From the NCBI RefSeq assembly GCF_023973825.1, contig NC_090124.1, positions 2,627,014 to 2,691,013 of the forward strand: DNA of 64,000 nucleotides, read 5' to 3'. The stretch comes from Plasmodium brasilianum. Taxonomy: Eukaryota > Apicomplexa > Aconoidasida > Haemosporida > Plasmodiidae. The notes beneath the pieces were generated by a model that saw nothing but the letters and a program-made list of their open reading frames with translations, searched no databases and was not told the DNA's origin. Position numbers and translations under genes: made by a program. This document shows positions 36,113 through 64,000 of this stretch, one piece after another (the first letter of the stretch is position 1; the number at the start of each line of letters is the position of its first letter).

Positions 36113-39100
36113 GTAATTTGAACTTTAACATAAATTAATTATTAATAGAATGTATTATATGTAATATCTACACTGTTATATGCTTTATAGTATTATTTAT
36201 TAATTATATAATTTTATAAATACACATGTGTATAAGGTATCATTTTTGTACGAAGATTAATAAATTAAGTTTTTATCTTTTTTGTATATTTAAATGTTTT
36301 AATGATTTTCACTTTGTACTATAAATTATTGTTTCAGAATAGATAAATATCATTGCTTAATATATATATTTGTATATTAAAAGCAGATTGATATTAACTG
36401 TGTATGAATTGTATCAAAATAAATATATAATATAAAAATTAATGTAATTTAAATTATTCTATATTACAATTGATATTTTAAATGAAAAATACCTATGTTC
36501 TATTTTTACCTTGTTAAATTCTAAAATAATTAAAGGTAGACGTGACGACTAAGTTACTTCGTTGATATTATGTTGAAAATAAAAATGTTTATTTTTGTAT
36601 ATAATCAAACGAAGTGAATGTATTATGCTACATTATGTATATTTTACTCAAAAAAAAAATCATAACTTTTATTATATAAAATAAGTTTTATTAGAAATAT
36701 ATTATATAATATATTTATTACTTAATACTTTTTAACAAACTTCTTTTTTTTTTATTGGTAGAAGTGGGGAATTATAAATATATAATGAAATAATATGATT
36801 TTTTAGAATGTATTACTTATAGTTGTTTACTAATTTATATATTCTAAGCAATTAATATTAAATGAAAAGTTATAGTTATTATTTTATTATTGGGACTACT
36901 TGTAACAATGATAGACTTTTGACAAATTTACTTAAATATATTTTATATAGAAATATACATATATTCATAATTGTACTATATATTTCTATTATTTTTTAAA
37001 TATTTAAAGAATATATTAATAAATTAAATTTAAATAGATACTAATATATAATATGTTGAAATTAATTCTTTTTTTTCTTTTCCTATGCCATATAATTAAA
37101 ATATTATTATACATGCAGCATTATATTATGTTGGAAGTGATATGATAATTGTTGGCAAAGATTTATTAAGAATTAATTATAATTGTTAATTCATGTTCTT
37201 ATATTTAATGTAAAATAGCTCATAAAATTATTCTTATAAATACAATTTATAAATACCAAAAAAATCTTAAGGTAATATAGTTATGTTTTATCATACTTGA
37301 CAAATAAAGTGTAACAGTTATATTATTTTGATTAAAATGAAATAAAATTCGGTTTAATAATAAAACAAAAAAACATTAAAAATTATCATAACCCACGAAT
37401 CAATTCTTTGAATATATATTCATTTATAATTCGTTTTCATATATCAGCACAATAATAATTTATAAGAACAAAAAAATATAGTAGTAAAAGAAAACAAAAA
37501 TAATGAAATTACTTTTTCATATTATAAAAAAATGTATCCTCTCCATATTACATTCAATTTAACAAAAATTGTCTTATTTGAAATTATAAAAAAAGAAAAG
37601 AAAAGTTATTTTTTCTTATTAGTATATTTATTTAGTGAATTGTCTTTACGAATAATTCAGAAGTTAATATAATTATTAAAATAAGTACTTTTAAAAAATT
37701 ATTCTGCTATGGATATTCGATGCTTCATCTTTTATTACATTACTATTATTAATATAAATAATATAATTATTTTCTCATTTTATCAAATGTTTTTATTTAT
37801 AATATTATTGTGTCTTTCTTTAATTTTAAAATATGTTTCTTTAAATAAAATAGACATTTTGAAAAAATATTAAATATATTTTGGAATATACTTAGGTATT
37901 AATATAATGGCATTTACATCAATTTATAATTGTTTTTATAGGTTTGTGCTTGATAATATTCTTTTACAATTATTAGTTTTTAATATACATTTAATATACT
38001 CGCAATAGTTTTAAGGGATTATAGGTAAATTAAAAAATGTATTCGAATTTCATTTAAAAAAAAAAAAAGAGAACGATAATATATATTGTGCTTATAATGT
38101 ATGCTTTATATTAATTAAATATGTATATACTCTTTATCTTATGTGGTAGAGCATAAGAGTATTTATTGAAAAGTTTCTTATATACATTATGATAATGTAC
38201 TATAAAAGAACATTCGTTTTTTTAATGGTAATATAATGTGATAATATCTAAATTCAAATGATTCTATTCAATAACTATGAAATTTGGATAATGTTTATAT
38301 TATTAATTAAAGATAATTATTTTCTAAATAAAATATTATTAATATATAATAATATACCTTTTTTATATATTATAAGGATATAATATTAAGAAAAATGAAT
38401 ATATGTATTTTGACTATGATTTTATTACCCTCTCGTGAAAATTATAATAAATAAGAAGAATATATATTTTTTTATTTTATTTATTAAAATTATTCCCGAA
38501 TTAATTAGTTTATCGAAACAGTAAACAAAATGGTATTGTAATATTATTTTCTTAATAGAAAGAATTAAATAAAAATTTATAATATACGTATTTTTATGGT
38601 ATATAGTAACAACCAAAAATTTTTACATATCAAAATGTATCTTATACTTCCGCACTATGAGACTAATATTGATTTATATTATAAATTTAAATACATATAT
38701 ATATATATATATATACAGTTTTAATAGGAAAATAATATTAAAAAGAAAAATATACAGTAATATTATTAACTAAAATGAAAAATTAAAAGAATTATTCTGT
38801 ACAAAAACCCAAAAAAAAAAAAGTTGAAAGTCAAAATATATAAATTATCATTAAAGCGTAAAAGAAAAGTAAGTCAATATTTTTTATTAACATAACATAA
38901 TATTAATGAAATTTTAGGTTTAACTGAAAGAGAAAATATAAAAGATATACAATATTTTTTAAAATTTCTACAAAATAATTATATGTTCTTTCATTTCCTT
39001 TTTGTTTTAAAAAAATGTTGATGATTATGAATTTAGTACCTTTTAATTTACATACATATTCATATATAGCTTGTTTCTTTTTGATTTCATAAAAATATTT

Positions 39101-45500: not shown

Positions 45501-46703
45501 TTTCATATTAAAGCTCAAATCAAAGTACAAGTCATGTAATCTAGTATTAATTAATTGCATTTTTGTATGTACAACATCATTTTAACAGGAATTTCTTGTA
45601 GTAACATGTTAGACATATCGTGTAAATCATGCAGATTTTTGAATAAATTAATTTTTAGTACTAGAAAAAGGGAAACATTAAAAATAATACCTGAATATTA
45701 ATGTAATAAATGAAAATAAAAATGTAATTTCATACACCATAAATTCAGTTGCTGTTTTTTCTTATGCTAGTAAACTTACAAATAATAATTTTACTGGAAT
45801 TGTATAACTTAGAGATACAATACCTTAATGTATTTCATTAATATAGTTTAAGAGCTGTATTCTTATGTGCTACAACATATGATATTTACGAAGTTGATAT
45901 TTATTATTAAAGTTTTCCAAATGTGTACAAAATTTATTACATTAAGTATAACATATTTATTTAAATGACTATTACATAGTCAATTATATTTTTTAGCATA
46001 AGTGGGACGGCTACAATTATATATCAAATATGGAAAGATTTTAGAGATAGTGAAACAAATAATTTGTATTAGATAAATAAAAAAGCGAAAATTTTCAACA
46101 ATTTTATATTAGTATTAATGTAGAAATAATAATCTCTTTAAGTAAATTATATATTAAACCATATAAATAATACAGTACATTCGATAAAAATTGGATACTT
46201 AAATGAATATACCACTTGGGGGGGATATTGGAACGTGTAACTAGTATAACTATGGAAATCATATTTTGTGAATTGAAATTTAATATTACTTTTTATTTAT
46301 CATGTTATTTGCGTTCGTATTAATTATTATTAATATTATAAAATAAATATAAAAATGATATAACTTGAAAAGTATATAAAATTTATTGATATATATATAA
46401 AGATAATCAATGTAAGTATACATGCTCAATAAAGGAAAAATTAAATATTTCAATGTAAATTAATGTATTTGCTTATGACTTCTTAATTTATAAGATATAA
46501 ATAATTTAGATAAATATAAATTTTTTTTTTTTAAATATATTAAAAAATGTTATGGAATAACTTGTGTTACTAACATTGAAGAGAATTAAACTTAAGTATC
46601 CAGAAGAATTTTTTATACAGTGCACTTATTTTTAATAATTTATTTTACAATTTTTATTTATAGGATATTATAAAAATTTTAAGTAGATTAAAGAGAATTA
46701 TAA

Positions 46704-46871
46704 ATGGAAACGTTAACCATTATTAAGAATGTTATATGTTCATATTGTTTAAAATACTACGATAACCTAAATAAGAATATTCATGATTGTTATAACGAAG
46801 TTAGTATGAGAAAAAGCAATAAATATATAATAATGTTAATTTCTGTATTTTTTAATTTGTTTTTTCGGTAA
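46704..46871 (+). CDS. Small ORF, doubtful, 55 residues with C-terminal hydrophobic end
   Basis: ATG at 46704 to TAA at 46869-46871. The protein has three Cys, then NLNKNIHDCYNEVSMRKSNK, and ends in a hydrophobic stretch before F-F-R. Its mixed composition is better than the surrounding chance frames, but there is no homologue in the window and no splice context. It may be a relic of a surface multigene family or chance. Confidence 0.15.
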   Translation: METLTIIKNVICSYCLKYYDNLNKNIHDCYNEVSMRKSNKYIIMLISVFFNLFFR

Positions 46872-51648: not shown

Positions 51649-52656
51649 ATGGAAAAATATATTAGGTCACTCTTATTTATTAATGTTGCTTCTTCTATGT
51701 TTTTAATTTGTATATGGAATTTCACCAATGATATGGTATGATAATAATATTTAAGATTATTTGTATTATACAATTTCTCTGCGTTTTATTTTCATTTACA
51801 TTTTTTTTTAGCAAGAAATTATATATACCTTAAATAATATATATTTGCGTTGTCTTTTTAGTGTTTTCTTAATAAATGTTTGGACGACTACCGTAATCAT
51901 GATAATAACTTATGTAGAAAAACATGCCGATTACTAGCAAACTGTAAAGGAGATAATTATTCAGCTATGATAGAATTAAAAGAAGAGATGCCAAATAATA
52001 CTGTGAAGGAAAAAAAGGATATCTATTTTTATGAGTATGAACCTAAAAGGGAAATGAAACAAACAAATAGAAATTTATTAAGTAAATATGTAGAGAACAA
52101 ACAAGATATGAAAAATAAATCATACATATTTGAAACAAGAAAATATTCTCGTTTGGAAAAAAAAATATTCAAAGAACTTGATTATGAAGATTTCCTTAAA
52201 AATAACAGAACTATTAGTGATAATTTGTACAAAAAAATAATAAGGAAAAAATGCGGAAAGCGATTTTCTTTACCTTTATTATTGTTATCGTTATTATTAA
52301 TATCGCTCATTTTAGATTTATCTTGTGGTTTTGGTCTTGTAAGAGGATTGTATGAGGTAATACTTCATTTTTCGCCTCCAGTTTCAACAGCATTTAGTAG
52401 TGTAAGTATAAAAATTTCTCCGACTACAAAATATTTATATGAACATTTGACTAATTCTCCTTTTAAATGGTTGTTCAATAATGTGGTATATATAGATAAG
52501 AAAAGTAGGCATGTGAACTACTGTGTATCAAATTTTTTTTCGTTCATAATATATTTCATACCATTTATTATATTAGGTGTCACACTTATATTAGCGCTAG
52601 TTTATTATCATAAAAAAGTTAAAAAATTTGAAAAAATTAAGTTCAGAAAAAGATAA
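51649..52656 (+). CDS. fam-l-like exported membrane protein, two exons
   Basis: Exons 51649-51735 and 51862-52656, 293 residues. Exon 1: M-E-K-Y-I-R-S-L-L-F with a hydrophobic core, ending F-T-N-D-M before GTATGA; exon 2 starts C-F-L-N-K-C-L-D after TTTTTAG. A CRLLANCKGD stretch near residue 53 is the relaxed PEXEL-like site, with Asn in the position usually acidic. The core YSRLEKKIFKELDY is near residues 123-136, then DFLKNNRTISDN. Membrane segments lie near 156-178 and 253-277, and the basic tail is YYHKKVKKFEKIKFRKR. The loop between them is specific to this copy. First gene of the rightmost fam-l/fam-m doublet. Confidence 0.82.
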
Positions 52657-54456
52657 AATGTATATTGAGGAACATGTTTCCTTTCATAATAAAAATAATC
52701 ACTACGAATTGATATTCGCAATATGTATAGTGATATGCCTATTAAATCGCCCATAATCTTTTAATATTTATGTGTGAGATTACATATATTTGACATTTTT
52801 TGATAAACGTCTTTAAAAAAAATACGTTTACAATTTTTTTTTTTATTTGCATTCTATAAGGTTTTTAATTATTTAGTTTAAGCTATCATTTCAGTTTAAT
52901 TGCATATTATGAACTAGTATATATTTTTGTGTTTTGGATAGATATTTTTGAAATATATGTGCTGGAGAGATATAATAAATATTTATTAAAACAATTAATA
53001 TATTATTGCACATTCTTTGTATTAATTCATATCAGTATTAAAAATAATACTACATTTTATTTTCTTATCTTATTATAACTTAAAATGATTATTTGTTTAT
53101 TTATTTCGAAATTTTTTTAATTATTTTTAAATTAAAAAGCAATATGTCCTGTTTTATGATTAATGTCTCAAAGAGATAGTACTTTTTTAGAATGTTATAT
53201 ATATATATTTATATATATATATACATATTATATAAAAAACAACTTAGTATATATTATTCTGTAGTAAATGTTTTATGAGGAATATATTTCAAAGCAATTT
53301 CAATGTAAAATTATTTTTAACACATATTAAGATATTTATGAATATTATAAAAGTTTAGATATAAATATATAATAAAATGATATCTTTATTAAATATGGAA
53401 TATTTATAACAATTCGATAACGTTTCATTTCTAGGTCTTTACAGATAAATGTTAAGTTAAATTAATTTATCATTTTATAATTGCAGTTAGTTGCGCTGTT
53501 GATTCAATATTGTAAGGATCAAATAAATATATATTATATTGAAATTATATAAATATATATAATATATACATATTTTAGTTTTTACATTATTAAAATATTG
53601 AATTATTGAATTAAGAATAATCACATATTAATGGACAATATACATAAATCTTTTATTCTTTTTCATAATAGTAAAATTTTATGTATTTATATATAGATAT
53701 AAATATCTAAATTATCGTGAACTGTAATAAAAAATATATACATTTCTGAAATAATACAATTATATTTATATATATATATATATATGTATATATATGTTCT
53801 ATGTTTTGCAGTTGCCCATGTATATTAAGAAAAAACATACAAGTATTTTATAGATGTATATATATGTATATATATATATTATATTAAAAATTAATAAATT
53901 TATTAAATTAATAAATATTTATTAAACAAAATAAAAATGATCTGAATAATTTTCGTATAAACATTTTATAGATATGTAAAATTGTTTTCATATGTTTATT
54001 TTAATAATATGTATTAAAAGTTTATTCTACTTTTTTTAATATGCCAAACTAGGTAAGTGTAATATATTAGGTTTTTCATGAAATATTTTTGCAAGATATA
54101 TTCATTCTTAAAAATAATTTTTTAATTAATTCAAATGAAAATATTATTGCAATATTAATATGCATCCTTATTTGGAAATATAAATGAACTTCATAATTTA
54201 TTATTTAATCAATTAAATAAAGAATTTATATGCATTTTAATCTGATAAATATGCTTATAACTACAAGAAAATGAGAAAAACATACATAGACATAAACCCA
54301 TTGAAGAGTTAAAAATATTGCTAATTTTAAGAAAGAAATATATATTTTTTTTCATTGTTATGATTAAATATTAATATAGTTTGTTAACACATTTTATTTC
54401 ATGTAAATAACACGTATATGAGTAGATATAAGGAAAAATTATATTGTGAAAATATG

Positions 54457-54480
54457 TTTTTTTTTTTTTTTTTTTTTTTT
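54457..54480. repeat. Poly(T) tract, 24 bp
   Basis: Longest uninterrupted T run noticed in the window, about 0.9 kb upstream of a fam-m start. Confidence 0.9.
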
Positions 54481-54961
54481 AAATATATTAATATTTTTTC
54501 TTTATGAATAAAAATAATTAAGTAAAAATAAAAAAATTAAAAAGATGAATATAAATACATTTCATCTAGAAATATTACTATGAATAAAATTTTATTAAAT
54601 ATTGCAATTTTCAAAAATTATGATATAAAAATATAAAAGAATACCTTATTTACTTTTAGAATACATACCCCTTAATAGATTATGTAGTACCATATAAATT
54701 TGACTTTCTAAGAGCATTATACTCACTAACAAATTGCATTCTCTTAATTGGGAACTAAAGCGTGCGTTACAGTTAACATAGAATAATATGTTTCTTTTTT
54801 CGTTTGTTATTATTATTATAAAATTATAATAATTTATATTATATTAATAATATTACGTTAGTCCAAAATACTTATTTATAAAATTATAATTATTTAAAGG
54901 AAAGTGTTCTTAAAATTATTAATGATTATCTTAATAAAGAGAGGAATATATTACATATATA

Positions 54962-55000
54962 TTTTCTACATTCTATATAGTACATAAATTGAATATTTAC
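54962..55000 (+). promoter_or_regulatory. Conserved fam upstream element
   Basis: TTTTCTACATTCTATATAGT then ACATAAATTGAATATTTACA, 415 bp upstream of the fam-m start at 55377. Confidence 0.5.
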
Positions 55001-55376
55001 ATATTATAAGAAATCACATCTTTATATCCTAATTTTTTCTGTATATAAAAAATAAAAGAATTATTTAACTAGTGCGTTGTGTTAAAAAAAAAATTGCATA
55101 TTTGAAATATTAATGAATCAAAGAAAATTATATCTTTTAATAGTAGTGATTTTTTTTTTTAATAATATTATAATGAAAATTATATAACATATTTTTAATC
55201 TTATTTTACTTTGTATTTGTGGTAAAATTAATTATTGCTAATATATTTTCCTAAATATTTATTAATAAATAATAAAAATAATACTTTAAATATATATTTC
55301 ATTGTTCATCATTAGAAATATATTATATCATTATTAATTTTTTCCTTTGTACATTAGAATATTAAAGATTTACATA

Positions 55377-56238
55377 ATGGAACAAAAAATTAAATCAATC
55401 ATACGTATTAAAATTGCTTTGTTTATCCTCTTAACGTGGATATGTTATTTTAACATTGTCATGGTATGCTGATATTATACAAGTGTATTCGATTTATTAG
55501 AATATTTTTTATTTTAGTTTTATGAACACTACTTTTTAGGTTTACTTTATTTGCCCTTTTAAATAAAATATATTTATATTAAAAATTTTTTTTTCACAGA
55601 GCACTTTTAATACATTCTCAGACAATAAGTGCATACATAATACAAAATTAATTATAATTAATTATCGAATACTAGGAAAATATAAAAATGATAATGATTC
55701 GCAAATTGTGGGGTTAAAAGAAAATACATCAATCAATGCAGAATACGGAAAAAAAAATATGTTTAAGAAGAAAAATGGGAGCAAACGAAAAAACGAAAAA
55801 TATAATAGAAAATTATTAAATAAGGCTCATTATTATACAGAAGTTATAGATTATAATAATGGAATGTTTGATGGAAAAAATTTCCATTTTGAAAAAAAAT
55901 GGTTAAGGAAAAAAGATTATGATGATTATCTAGAAAAACAAAGAAGAATTTCTCATATATCTTTAAAAAAAATAAAATTTAGAAGTTACGGATTTGCAGT
56001 TGTTATATTTTTTCTATTTTTCTTGTTTGGAATAGGAATGCCAATATTACATGGGTTAGGGCCCTTGAAAGATATGTTGAAATCTGTAGAAGAATTAATA
56101 GTTGATGAAAAACATTACTTTTATCTAATGTTATTTGCTTTAATTATTATTGTGTTAGGGTTAACACTTATAATGACGATTCCTAAAATCTTAAGAAATA
56201 ATGAAAAATATAGAAGAATTAAGTTAATGAATGAGTAA
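55377..56238 (+). CDS. fam-m-like exported membrane protein, two exons
   Basis: Exons 55377-55463 and 55600-56238, 241 residues. Exon 1: M-E-Q-K-I-K-S-I-I-R, hydrophobic, ending F-N-I-V-M before GTATGC; exon 2 begins S-T-F-N-T-F-S after TTTTTTTTCACAG. NYRILGKYKND near residue 50 is a weak PEXEL-like site. The core EVIDYNNGMFDGKNFHF (K-N instead of K-H) lies near 99-115, followed by KKWLRKKDYDDYLEKQRR. Membrane segments lie near 150-170 and 200-224; the tail is NNEKYRRIKLMNE. The N-terminal linker is shorter and more basic than in the sister genes. It is the last intact gene before the palindrome and pairs with the fam-l gene at 51.6 kb. Confidence 0.82.
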
Positions 56239-57448
56239 AATGTATATTAAGTTATACGCATTTTTCTGAAAGGAATTTGTCAATATGAAGTAATATATGA
56301 AATATATATAGTAATATATTTTTATAAAGCATACTTATAATTGCTATAATTATATAAATATACGATTATAAAATTGATTGTTTCTACATACAAAAGGATT
56401 GTAAATATATACTTATACTTTCCGTGAATTTGAATGTTTTAATATTTTTAAATGTATGTTATAAATTATCGTTTCTTCTTACCTATATATTATTAATTTT
56501 TATATACAATTTTTTTATATAAATACACTTTAATGAAAAATGTATATATGTTTTTTGAAATGAATATGTATAGCATAATTTCTATAATCATATTTATGTC
56601 GTGTTCCTATTTATATTGTAACTATAAATAGTACTTTTATATATATTTTTTGATTTTTCTTTTTGTAGACAAACTGATCATTTGTTGTTATAATTAGAAA
56701 AGTATTTAACTAACCTTATATTAAAAATAGATTTCTCTTACTTAGTACATGATTAAACGAACTGAATAATGTTTCATTGTATCGACATATATGTATATAT
56801 ATTTCTTAAACATAAAAGGAAATTTTATGTTTATTCTACAAAATAAATTTTATGATGAATAAATTGTGACATATGTATTTTTAAAATCCATTTTAACATG
56901 AATTTAATTTTTTTTTCAGGATTTACATATAATATTATAAATATGATATAAAATAATATTATTTTTAAATTATGTTCTTAGTTTAGGGATTACGGTTAAT
57001 ATTATAACATTACTTTTGTTTCTATTATATTGTATTAACTAGTGTACATTATTAAGTATAAAATTAATGCCTTTTTAAAAGTACCATATAAACTTCAAAA
57101 ATATAAAAAATTGAACTGTTCTTTTATCTACCTATGTAAAAAAACGTATTACAAAAATAATTTGAATGTTAAAAATGTTTTTTATTTTGTACAAGGACTT
57201 TTCTTATTTAAATCTTATATTTTTATTATATAATTTAAAGAGCTTATTTTATTAATTAAATTATTTTTTTATAAAAAATAAATTAATAAAAAGCTCAATT
57301 CATAGTTGAATTAAGTAAATGTTTTTCATATATCAATTATGTTAATAATATTGCAAGTTGTTATTACATAAATATGTTAGTAGTGAAAAGATATTTTATA
57401 ATTGTTATAATATATTTTTATATGTATTATATATTGAAGTTAGTAATG

Positions 57449-57451
<3 letters not shown>

Positions 57452-57482
<31 letters not shown>
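57452..57482. repeat. AT dinucleotide microsatellite
   Basis: About 15 uninterrupted AT units in intergenic DNA. Confidence 0.9.
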
Positions 57483-57485
<3 letters not shown>

Positions 57486-57990
57486 TACCAAATTATTACA
57501 ATAAAATTAAAAACACTGATTAGAAAAATGCAACAAAATATATAGTTTCTTTTTATGTATTAGAAGTATAAATGATGTGATTTGCACTTCATTCCCTAAT
57601 AAATTTATGATTACTATAAACAAATGATAATGTTAAATAATGTTTAATATCTACATATTATAAAAAATTTTGAATTTATAATTTTTATATGAAAATGTTA
57701 ATATTTCTGTATGCCGATATAATTTCAATATTACCAATTTTTTATTTAATTATTTTATTTTTCATATCAAGTACAATATGAAAAACCTTATATCTAATTA
57801 ACAATTAATATTAATGTATATAGTAATATTCATGGATATACATAATTACCTGTGAAAATTAAATATAGTAAGTAATCTGAAATTTCTAATTTACAAATTG
57901 TTGCATCAACTGAAATTTTTATGTGATCATTAATGGAAATTCCTTATTTTAAAATAGCACATGCTTAGCAATGTAAAGTTAAGGTGCTCT

Positions 57991-58165
57991 ATGGAGACAA
58001 TAAAAATGAAATTCTATGAGAATCCTCAAGAAAAGAAGAATTATCTTTAATATTTCCTATTCCTCACATATTAATATGTTTCTTGTTATTATAATTATGG
58101 TAATATTTGTCGTACTTTTCCTTTTATATAAAGTAAATAAAAATGAAATATAAAAACATATATAC
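57991..58165 (+). pseudogene. Membrane-segment relic of a surface multigene family
   Basis: A frame reads ISYSSHINMFLVIIIMVIFV then VLFLLYK, ending at 58132 directly before GTAAAT. It is preceded by M-E-T-I-K-M-K-F in another frame that stops. If not spliced, the frame continues V-N-K-N-E-I, loosely like the basic tail of fam genes. A fam-type downstream block follows about 450 bp later, which favours a decayed fam unit. A transmembrane exon of an STP1 or PIR-like gene is the alternative. Confidence 0.3.
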
Positions 58166-59101
58166 ACTATGTTACTATTATAGTTTACTACATGGTAAAA
58201 TTTTTAATTATACAATAATTTTATATATGCTTTTTGTTTATTACATATATCCATTTGTTTAATCCCCTGTGATTTTACATATATAAAATTGTGTTAAAGG
58301 TGAACAAAAAAACTAAGAATAATTCTTGAGTAGAACATATTTATGAATTGACAATTAATGGGAAACTCTCTTCCTACTCAAATTTTAGTAACAGAAAGAT
58401 CCATGTTCCTTTGCTTCATGTATAAATGTCTTGTCTTTAATGTAAAATATAATATATCAGTTGAAGGCTAGAACGTCAAAATCGTTGAATACTAGTATAA
58501 ATTTTTAATTGTATCTAATTGCAATAGATTAACTAATAATAATAATTATAAATAAAATATATATATTTTTTTTATTTTTTGAATAATATTGATTTGTATA
58601 TATACATTTGTAGATAGTATAAAAAATTATCCTTATTAAATAAAGATTATTTATAACTGTTTACCAAATTATATATTATGTATCTAAGCAATTAAAAGGA
58701 AGATTTGGAATTATTTATTATTAATCTTAATTTTGGCGTTAATTACCTTATGATATGACTAATTTAGTACATATTATATTTGAAACTTATCAATAAATGA
58801 AATATATATTCTTTATTATTTTTGATATTATTATAATATTAAATGGCTCATTTAGATTCAAACATTTTCTAACAGGTAATATGTGTTATTTTTTTTTTCC
58901 CCTCTTGCATAATAATAAAATTATAAATATTTATATATATCTGTAAAAAGATGAATTGACATTATTGGTAATGAATAAATATATTTTATATCAACAAATA
59001 TAAAATAATATGTAAGTATTTTTATATATGTATTTCCTATTTTTAATATATTTAGATATATAAAAGAGCTAATATGGCGTTAAAAATATAAATAAGTATA
59101 T

Positions 59102-61497
59102 ATAATTTATGATAAAAATTAATAATGCATTTATATATATAAGGATCATTTTTTAAATAAAATAAAATTAAAAAAAATATATTATTTATTTTTGTATGAT
59201 TCATAGTTAGATAACGTTTTATTTTTTAACTACATAAGTTTTAATTAACTTAATACAAATATTACCATATTTTTTATATAAGATTTAGCTCAATATATAT
59301 ATAACGTATATGATAACGTATACGAATATTTTGGTAGTTATAACAATGGATAAATTTATTTTATTAAATCCATAATCTTCTGGATTAAAATGAAAATTAG
59401 AATACCTATTTAATATGCATGTTATTTATCACATTTATTTGCAATTATAAAGTGCTTTTTAGGCAGTGTAATATCACATGTATATTTATTTGTTTTCAAA
59501 AATATACTAAAGAGATGGAGAACATTAGTATAATATATACGAAAAATTATGGGTATAGAAAGTGAACAGATTGCCAATAGAAATTTTAATAAAAATATGT
59601 TTATGTGTATGCTTGTTTTCTAGAATTAAGGATTACATTAGTTTATTAAAATATTTTCTTGTGTGTATTTAATATATATGTTTATGTAAAATAATTATAT
59701 AATGATAATATATTTGTTTTAGTTCAATTTGTAAGATATAAAAAAAGGAATGGGATAAAAAATAGAAAAATAGTAAGTTAAGCTATTTGATAATGCTACA
59801 TATTTAGGTGTATAAAGAAAATAAGATAAGTAAATATTATGTTAAAATATAATGTATAACATTATGTAAGTTATATCATTAGTTATATATTCAAACATAA
59901 GTATCCATGGTAATATGTAATAAAAATATAAATATATTTTAATTTTTTTTTTTTTTTTTTCCATTTCAAGTCAATTATGTCTTAATTTTCATTAAGCCAC
60001 AAATATTTATTAATACGTTTAATAAGAAATACGCTCTTTATATGGAAACAATTGAAAAATACAGTTAAAGGGAAAATAACTCTGGAAGCTAGAAAATAGA
60101 GAAATATTACAAGAGTGTTGTTTAATATACATTATAAGTTAAATATGTATCTTAACAATTATATAATGAATAGGAAAATTATGGTAATAAAAAATTTTTA
60201 TAGAATTAATAATATTTATTTTTCATGTAATTAATATCATTTTTCAGTGCTGTTAATTTTTCATTTATTGTATATGTATAATATACATGAAGATAAAAGT
60301 GTGACATAAATTTCTTATTTACTGAAAGAATCCATGTATAAAAATAATAAAACCTTATGAGTATATATAAGTTTAAAAAAGCAATTCATGTTGAATAATT
60401 CACTATAAAAAAAAAAAAAAAAATTTTATGAATCCGCACTTTGTTAAGTTTTTAATTTTTCCATGTTATTATTTAACGTATATATATGTACTTTTATTTC
60501 TATTTTAACTTTTTTTGTATTTCTTGAATTACATACTTATATATTCAAAACATTCTTTATCTAAATCTATTGTTCTCTCTGTACATGACTGGACTTTCTG
60601 TTTTTTCTTGTTTTTTATATTAATACCTTAAAAAATAAAATTAGGAAATAAAAAAGTATTATATGTCAATGGACTTGTTTCGTGTATGAATTTTTAAAAA
60701 TATAAAAAAGTAGAATTTACGTTTTTCCATTGAGACAATGTCGCTGAATTGAGAACATAACATTGATTTTCAATAAAATTGGTTTTGATATATATAGTTG
60801 TAAAAATTATTATATGTTTTTTGCTAAATGCATTATTCTTAATTATAGAATTATGAATTAACTGAATATGATTGAAGAAATTTTAAAAAAAAAAAAATTT
60901 TAATTGTTATAATTATAATTACACATATGTAAGCATTGGCAATGATAATATCAAGAATATCATGCTTGCTATTATTTAGGTTACATATATCTTAATCAAT
61001 AAGACATAATCATCGTGAAAAAATGTCAAGATGAAAAATAATTGAACGGAGAATACAAAAATGATGTATTACAAGGCCATAAAAATGTAACATTAAAATA
61101 ATTGAAAATTAGAAAAATAAGATGAATAAAAACAACATAAAGTTTGATTAGAAATGAAACCAAATATATAAGTAAAAGAAAATTATAAAACAATTTTTCT
61201 CTCTTTTTTTCTAGTTCGTGTAGAAATAATAAAGGTACAAAAAAAGTAGATGGACATACATATAAATGTTTAATGTAAAAGTGTTAAAAAAATAAAAAAA
61301 AAGGAAATGTCACTGTTTACAAACGTTTTTTAATATATTATTTTTTCCTTTACATTATATAAATAAGATAAAAGGAAATTTAATGTATCTGTCATAATGT
61401 ATTTTCTTAGAAATTGGAGATAAAAGAAATGAAAAAAATTATTTTCAAGGAATTTAAATGTATATCACATGATACTATGTACCTATATGGGCGAACA
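59102..61497 (+). repeat. Left arm of giant palindrome
   Basis: 2396 bp whose reverse complement runs from 61602 to the window edge. I paired anchors throughout (for example 59102 with 64000, 59462 with 63640, 60401 with 62700, 60781 with 62319 and 61414 with 61685). No substitution was found in the stretches compared. The arm is non-coding. The matched 92-codon frames on both strands near the centre are mirror images produced by the palindrome. It may extend left of 59102; the partner sequence lies outside the window. Confidence 0.95.
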
Positions 61498-61601
61498 TGT
61501 GCATATGTACATGAGTATATATGGATAAATATGCGTATATTCCATACGTTAATATGCCCATTTACATATATGCTCATTAAAAAAACATTTATGCACCCAT
61601 T
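61498..61601. repeat. Palindrome spacer, 104 bp
   Basis: Unpaired centre between the arms. It is itself an imperfect inverted repeat: GTGCATATGTACATGAGTAT on the left resembles the reverse complement of the right part, which contains CATATATGCTCATT, an A-run and CATTTATGCAC. Confidence 0.85.
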
Positions 61602-64000
61602 TGTTCGCCCATATAGGTACATAGTATCATGTGATATACATTTAAATTCCTTGAAAATAATTTTTTTCATTTCTTTTATCTCCAATTTCTAAGAAAATAC
61701 ATTATGACAGATACATTAAATTTCCTTTTATCTTATTTATATAATGTAAAGGAAAAAATAATATATTAAAAAACGTTTGTAAACAGTGACATTTCCTTTT
61801 TTTTTATTTTTTTAACACTTTTACATTAAACATTTATATGTATGTCCATCTACTTTTTTTGTACCTTTATTATTTCTACACGAACTAGAAAAAAAGAGAG
61901 AAAAATTGTTTTATAATTTTCTTTTACTTATATATTTGGTTTCATTTCTAATCAAACTTTATGTTGTTTTTATTCATCTTATTTTTCTAATTTTCAATTA
62001 TTTTAATGTTACATTTTTATGGCCTTGTAATACATCATTTTTGTATTCTCCGTTCAATTATTTTTCATCTTGACATTTTTTCACGATGATTATGTCTTAT
62101 TGATTAAGATATATGTAACCTAAATAATAGCAAGCATGATATTCTTGATATTATCATTGCCAATGCTTACATATGTGTAATTATAATTATAACAATTAAA
62201 ATTTTTTTTTTTTTTAAAATTTCTTCAATCATATTCAGTTAATTCATAATTCTATAATTAAGAATAATGCATTTAGCAAAAAACATATAATAATTTTTAC
62301 AACTATATATATCAAAACCAATTTTATTGAAAATCAATGTTATGTTCTCAATTCAGCGACATTGTCTCAATGGAAAAACGTAAATTCTACTTTTTTATAT
62401 TTTTAAAAATTCATACACGAAACAAGTCCATTGACATATAATACTTTTTTATTTCCTAATTTTATTTTTTAAGGTATTAATATAAAAAACAAGAAAAAAC
62501 AGAAAGTCCAGTCATGTACAGAGAGAACAATAGATTTAGATAAAGAATGTTTTGAATATATAAGTATGTAATTCAAGAAATACAAAAAAAGTTAAAATAG
62601 AAATAAAAGTACATATATATACGTTAAATAATAACATGGAAAAATTAAAAACTTAACAAAGTGCGGATTCATAAAATTTTTTTTTTTTTTTTTTATAGTG
62701 AATTATTCAACATGAATTGCTTTTTTAAACTTATATATACTCATAAGGTTTTATTATTTTTATACATGGATTCTTTCAGTAAATAAGAAATTTATGTCAC
62801 ACTTTTATCTTCATGTATATTATACATATACAATAAATGAAAAATTAACAGCACTGAAAAATGATATTAATTACATGAAAAATAAATATTATTAATTCTA
62901 TAAAAATTTTTTATTACCATAATTTTCCTATTCATTATATAATTGTTAAGATACATATTTAACTTATAATGTATATTAAACAACACTCTTGTAATATTTC
63001 TCTATTTTCTAGCTTCCAGAGTTATTTTCCCTTTAACTGTATTTTTCAATTGTTTCCATATAAAGAGCGTATTTCTTATTAAACGTATTAATAAATATTT
63101 GTGGCTTAATGAAAATTAAGACATAATTGACTTGAAATGGAAAAAAAAAAAAAAAAAAATTAAAATATATTTATATTTTTATTACATATTACCATGGATA
63201 CTTATGTTTGAATATATAACTAATGATATAACTTACATAATGTTATACATTATATTTTAACATAATATTTACTTATCTTATTTTCTTTATACACCTAAAT
63301 ATGTAGCATTATCAAATAGCTTAACTTACTATTTTTCTATTTTTTATCCCATTCCTTTTTTTATATCTTACAAATTGAACTAAAACAAATATATTATCAT
63401 TATATAATTATTTTACATAAACATATATATTAAATACACACAAGAAAATATTTTAATAAACTAATGTAATCCTTAATTCTAGAAAACAAGCATACACATA
63501 AACATATTTTTATTAAAATTTCTATTGGCAATCTGTTCACTTTCTATACCCATAATTTTTCGTATATATTATACTAATGTTCTCCATCTCTTTAGTATAT
63601 TTTTGAAAACAAATAAATATACATGTGATATTACACTGCCTAAAAAGCACTTTATAATTGCAAATAAATGTGATAAATAACATGCATATTAAATAGGTAT
63701 TCTAATTTTCATTTTAATCCAGAAGATTATGGATTTAATAAAATAAATTTATCCATTGTTATAACTACCAAAATATTCGTATACGTTATCATATACGTTA
63801 TATATATATTGAGCTAAATCTTATATAAAAAATATGGTAATATTTGTATTAAGTTAATTAAAACTTATGTAGTTAAAAAATAAAACGTTATCTAACTATG
63901 AATCATACAAAAATAAATAATATATTTTTTTTAATTTTATTTTATTTAAAAAATGATCCTTATATATATAAATGCATTATTAATTTTTATCATAAATTAT
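61602..64000 (-). repeat. Right arm of giant palindrome (runs off the window)
   Basis: 2399 bp, inverted copy of 59102-61497. It is three bases longer, from three single-base homopolymer differences: T5 at 60456-60460 versus A6 at 62640-62645, A13 at 60885-60897 versus T14 at 62202-62215, and T18 at 59943-59960 versus A19 at 63141-63159. The arm is still matching at the last base of the window. Confidence 0.95.

Follow-up and report, generated by a model that had tools for sequence, protein, structure and literature searches.

A near-perfect palindrome at the right end of a Plasmodium brasilianum contig is very probably a fold-back read artefact

Introduction

Is a near-perfect palindrome found at the right edge of a stretch of the Plasmodium brasilianum genome a feature of the chromosome, or is it a product of the reads and their assembly? 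The stretch analysed, here called the window, comprises 64,000 nucleotides and corresponds to C11:2627014-2691013 (contig NC_090124.1 of the assembly GCF_023973825.1). Positions given without the name of a contig are positions of the window. A first-pass annotation had reported a palindrome of at least 4.9 kb at the right edge, with arms of about 2.4 kb and a 104-bp spacer, and had offered three origins for it: an inverted duplication maintained by gene conversion, a break-induced fold-back near a chromosome end, or an assembly or template chimera.

The genome of P. brasilianum has been described as having a size of 31.4 Mb, with 29.1 Mb in chromosomes and organelles and 29 unplaced contigs amounting to 2.29 Mb, and as containing the fam-l and fam-m families (PMC9671904). 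For its sequencing, a 20-kb library was run twice on PacBio RSII and two MiSeq runs were added; assembly was with MaSuRCA, followed by Circlator, IPA, ABACAS2 and PILON. Adapter trimming is described in that account for the Illumina reads, and its one mention of amplification has no bearing on the library (PMC9671904). Missed SMRTbell adapters are reported to give palindromic reads which can harm an assembly, and palindromes were found in 0.5% of the reads of a non-amplified control, as a mixture that included false positives (PMC6218980). Missed adapters and strand jumps of the polymerase are both listed among the read artefacts that impede assembly (PMC6304105). In newer PacBio data, fold-backs were reported to be virtually absent from HiFi and Mas-Seq samples and to reach 0.03% in Iso-Seq (PMC12870357); the rates given in that source speak against a high fold-back rate in PacBio data generally, not against single RSII cases. 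A literature search on palindromes or inverted duplications at Plasmodium subtelomeres returned, by title, no Plasmodium paper and some on kinetoplastids or trypanosomes.

Materials and Methods

The assembly searched consisted of 43 contigs with a total of 31,374,054 bases, 29,083,105 of them in C1 to C14 and 2,290,949 in the remainder. Contig ends are designated by the number of the contig and L (left) or R (right). From each end, 300 to 2,000 bases were taken, and pieces of the non-telomeric ends were searched against the genome. The 11 ends with telomere repeats were excluded from the total of 86, leaving 75, and 71 of these were informative, meaning that the end itself was returned by its search; 1R, 38R, 39R and 40R fell outside this set, and 28R was counted as returned via the query 24R, which has the identical sequence. 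Each end search scored the best 40 of 169 to 384 candidates, so that inverted copies may be missed.

In the genome scan for the telomere motif, three repeats in a row were sought. For all spacer alignments, the sequence that we take to be that of the PacBio SMRTbell adapter was used, and the scores were compared with those of shuffles that preserved base composition only, not dinucleotides.

Results and Discussion

Structure of the palindrome

Comparison of the window with itself by BLASTN gave one near-identical inverted match, 59102-64000 against 64000-59102. When the two arms were aligned, the left arm on the forward strand (59102-61497) paired with the right arm on the reverse strand (64000-61602), with 2396 of 2399 columns identical, no substitutions and three one-base gaps, all of them in homopolymer runs (at 59956, 60406 and 60884). 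An inverted match of this kind over 2.4 kb cannot be due to chance, and the two comparisons agree in confirming the length, the arms and the spacer that had been reported. The spacer of 104 nt is lopsided: its first 76 nt (61498-61573, forward strand) run outward and still belong to the unfolded locus, and no returning counterpart of this part was detected, while the last 28 nt (61574-61601) mark the turn and match none of the sources tried.

The total length of C11 is 2,691,013 bases, and the end of the window is therefore the end of the contig. The earlier observation that the match is unbroken at the window end is true, yet position 64000 is also the final base of C11. The right arm, a mirror copy running to that base, has no flank past its end, and in this contig the palindrome is flanked on the side of the left arm only, so that distinct unique flanks were not found on both arms. 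It had been predicted that the neighbouring fam-m and fam-l genes would have mirror copies near 66.9-71.5 kb; as C11 ends at 64000, these copies are absent from the record. The genes themselves are real. Two ORF stretches on the forward strand, 51880-52656 and 55708-56238, both located outside the palindrome, match the Pfam family PF12420 (Fam-L, Fam-M like) with E values of 7e-70 and 1.3e-39, respectively.

The telomere motif was absent from the first 600 bases of C11, and no place on C11 was present among the 100 of 195 places listed by the genome scan, in contig order from C1 into C14. A telomere cap next to the palindrome, as a break-induced fold-back would need, was likewise not found among those places. 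These results, together with the fact that the contig and the second arm end at the same base, indicate that C11 stops inside a subtelomere.

The same locus without a fold

The unplaced contig C29, with a length of 69,435 bases, gave a reverse match starting from its last base (C29:69435 down to 60222) to positions 52357-61573 of the forward strand of the window, with 99.7% identity. Thirty letters differ between them, 22 of which are concentrated in a 106-bp block at 58138-58243, and the other eight are all indel letters; outside this noisy block no substitution was found over 9.1 kb. The noise in the block was assigned to C29, since the window agrees with contig C36 where C29 differs. The left arm is genuine subtelomeric sequence and is also present once in C29, and the right arm differs from C29 by three indel letters, all in homopolymers, with no substitution. 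Past position 61573, that is, 76 nt into the spacer, C29 continues with a different sequence which does not mirror the arm.

A copy of the locus with 95% identity is also found in contig C36, which aligns with C29 on one strand across the fold point, over 18.7 kb at 95.1% identity. Both contigs show the locus without the fold, and the sequence of C29 is so near to that of C11 that the two could represent one and the same place. C29 and C11 overlap at their ends, oriented as they would be if a single chromosome arm ran on from one into the other. The overlap has a length of 9.2 kb, and C29 would extend the arm by about 60 kb.

At the other extreme of C29, its initial 2 kb match C7:2319266-2321264 with 100% identity; in the following 6 kb, which correspond to the neighbouring stretch of C7, similarity falls to 92.9%. 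The far end of C29 thus reaches a shared subtelomeric block, which does not affect the fold. Copies of contig ends with 99-100% identity were seen in other contigs in many cases (for example, 7R in C43, and 2R in C35, C20 and C1), and it is therefore common in this assembly for overlaps to have been left unmerged or for subtelomeric sequence to have been duplicated very recently.

Palindromes at other contig ends

Among the 71 informative ends, at least five palindromes were read, at 11R, 12R, 18R, 25R and 43R. Each of these ends recurs in inverted orientation within its own contig, a few kb further in, and the arms reach the last base of the contig. The palindrome of 12R (L098:1209-6000) has arms of 2.4 kb, a spacer of 66 nt and 58 differing letters between the arms; that of 18R (L105:844-8000, equivalent to C18:256915-264071) has arms of 3.5 kb, a spacer of 75 nt and two indel letters without substitutions; that of 25R (L100:1781-4000) has arms of 1.1 kb, a spacer of 35 nt and five differing letters, all within 24 nt of the fold; and that of 43R (L104:681-6500) has arms of 2.9 kb around a spacer of 56 nt, with neither indel letters nor substitutions. 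The corresponding values for 11R are arms of 2.4 kb, a spacer of 104 nt and three indel letters without substitutions.

At 12R, 57 of the 58 differing letters are located in the left arm, close to the fold (L098:3076-3563), and the right arm differs from contig C22 by one letter in 2358. With the noise confined to one arm and the other arm agreeing with C22, the former resembles an uncorrected read. The loci of 12R and 25R are also carried by C22 and C17, and no inverted repeat was found in the 8.0 and 7.0 kb examined in these contigs, respectively. For 18R, no second copy of the locus was present among the matches listed, and for 43R, the stretch compared with the other copy, in C32, stops short of the fold. 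In contig C18, the telomere repeats are found at the left end and the palindrome at the right end. A palindrome opposite the telomere is expected of a process acting at contig ends, not of one acting at chromosome ends.

A sixth contig-terminal palindrome is likely at 24R, as indicated by the positions of the hits: the end pairs with an inverted copy at 38462-38598, a second pair is formed by 46119-46243 (plus) and 46620-46741 (minus), and the two pairs have a common centre near 46430. The implied arms would be about 8 kb long, and the candidate extent is C24:38462-54391. The right end of C24 is also carried by contig C28. The five palindromes that were read and the likely one at 24R are all located at right ends, though 37 of the 71 informative ends are left ones; this bias may stem from the way in which the assembler works.

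Inverted copies inside their own contigs were also found for the ends 39L and 40L, and they were counted apart from the survey because C39 and C40 are built of repeated units. In C39:4501-8000 (L106) and C40:7001-10000 (L107), units about 6 kb apart were observed, with inverted repeats around spacers of 41 and 59 nt, respectively, which look like further fold-backs. Our guess is that these two small contigs are mitochondrial.

Adapter sequence and the nature of the turns

The spacer of 18R corresponds to the reverse complement of the SMRTbell adapter (score 51, with none of 1000 shuffles as good). The spacer of 12R aligned with the whole adapter, with errors, at a score of 35, which was equalled by 4 of 1000 shuffles and was also the best score among 3000 random pieces of the window; on its sequence, this spacer is probably the adapter. 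At the opposite extreme of the contig under study, the left end of C11 (C11:1-31, L024:1-31) is adapter, with a score of 41 against 26 for the best of 1000 shuffles and, in a second test, a score of 44 with none of 1000 shuffles as good. The adapter is followed there by about 40 bases rich in G+C, and then by AT-rich sequence.

No adapter was found in the 104-nt spacer of 11R, where the score was 17 (361 of 1000 shuffles as good) and that of the reverse complement 13 (865 of 1000). For the spacers of 25R and 43R, the best scores were 14 and 15, no better than those of the shuffles. The spacer of 25R is instead the reverse complement of the hairpin that the locus itself has in C17, with a score of 169 of a possible 180 against 97 for the forward orientation. 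A spacer of this kind is consistent with a polymerase that switched strands at an inverted repeat native to the locus, and the palindromes of this assembly thus seem to have arisen in no fewer than two ways.

When the genome was scanned for CAACAACAACAACGGAGG, the core of the adapter, allowing two mismatches at most, 8 places were found; the reversed control yielded 9, and the scan was thus uninformative. The scan also missed the left end of C11, whose copy of the adapter has more errors.

Several sources were tried for the last 28 nt of the spacer of C11, and all were rejected. As an error-rich reverse complement of the beginning of the spacer, they were equalled by 1041 of 2000 shuffles and by 308 of 2000 random places; as nearby sequence of C29 or C36, they were equalled by 20 to 103 of 200 shuffles; and, concerning an origin elsewhere, the inner 24-mer was matched nowhere else in the genome when three mismatches were allowed.

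Origin of the palindrome

Genuine large palindromes occur, for example, on Y chromosomes. They are also mentioned in the work on missed adapters (PMC6218980). The palindrome of C11 resembles them in its two near-identical inverted arms and its short spacer. It differs from them in having neither a far unique flank nor a telomere cap, in that its locus is found unfolded elsewhere, and in that the same build is present at several contig ends. Palindromic PacBio reads due to missed adapters (PMC6218980) share with it the near-identical inverted arms and the short spacer, and the spacers of 18R and, probably, 12R hold the adapter; the spacer of C11, in contrast, is without adapter, and its 76 nt are without a detected returning counterpart. 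Reads with a strand jump or fold-back of the polymerase (strand jumps: PMC6304105) turn inside the locus without an adapter, as in C11, and 25R fits this type. Unlike 25R, the right end of C11 has no comparable hairpin, only inverted matches of 7 bases, and 28 nt at the turn match nothing tried.

We regard the palindrome of C11 as a fold-back read artefact, caused by a missed adapter or by a strand switch, and not as a genomic feature, with a probability of about 95%. This reading follows from the position of the palindrome against the terminus of C11, from the unfolded locus in C29, from the recurrence of sister cases at unrelated contig ends and from the adapter in some of them. Among the origins initially offered, the assembly or template chimera is thus retained, on the basis of C29 without the fold, the colinear C36, the like palindromes on C12, C18, C25 and C43, and the adapter in C18, at the left end of C11 and probably in C12; the other two, gene conversion and a fold-back induced by a break close to a chromosome end, were not supported.

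A PacBio molecule would have been read outward along the subtelomere to about position 61573, would have turned, via an unrecognised hairpin adapter or a strand switch of the polymerase, and would then have been read back along the other strand. The hybrid assembler would have used this folded read to extend C11, and correction with Illumina reads would have levelled both arms to near identity, while the real chromosome would go on as in C29. That a single read gave the fold, that the arms were levelled by the Illumina correction, and which of the routes of turning applied, are points that we infer from the assembled sequence; the turn at 11R may be due either to a missed adapter whose centre is garbled or to a strand switch. 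The spacer without detectable adapter, the 28 nt that match nothing tried, the lopsided 76 nt and the near absence of fold-backs from newer PacBio genomic data (PMC12870357) are points against an artefact.

The same lack of a detected adapter in the spacer favours a real inverted duplication, present in some of the sequenced parasites, in which a broken end would have folded back through short inverted matches before being copied, with C29 as the unbroken version carried by the others. Inverted matches of 7 bases, which may be due to chance, are present near the turn (ATATATG at 61517-61523 with 61565-61571, and ATATGTA at 61503-61509 with 61563-61569), in a sequence that is very AT-rich. If true, such a fold-back would mean that fam-m/fam-l gene blocks lie past the end of C11 as a pair in opposite orientations, and a malaria parasite would then provide an example of a subtelomere inverted through a break. 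It is considered very unlikely, since C11 shows no telomere motif among the 100 of 195 places listed and no flank past the second arm, and since the same build is found at the ends of four other contigs that were read, with the adapter in at least one fold and, in C18, opposite a telomere.

C29 might also be a very recent duplicate located on another chromosome, with C11 truly ending in an inverted duplication whose arms are kept alike by gene conversion. Shared subtelomeric blocks are indeed common, as illustrated by the 95% copy in C36 and by the beginning of C29, in which the 2 kb identical to C7 are followed by 6 kb of only 92.9% similarity. Against this stand the absence of substitutions between C29 and C11 over the 9.1 kb outside the noisy block and their end-to-end overlap as one arm; the recurrence at contig ends and the adapter would, moreover, be left unaccounted for. 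We therefore give this explanation hardly any weight and retain the fold-back read artefact.

Implications for the assembly

The result is a caution and not a discovery: the assembly of P. brasilianum has fold-back tails and remnants of PacBio adapter at contig ends. Counts and comparisons of the fam-l, fam-m and pir families make use of such ends, where the tails can give the false impression of inversions or of additional copies. It may be, as the pair C11 and C29 leads us to suppose, that fold-back tails kept overlapping contigs unjoined. Apart from the contig ends, an array of telomere repeats was observed inside C1, at 1386638-1386903, about 184 kb from the right end of this contig, which suggests a wrong join in the assembly.
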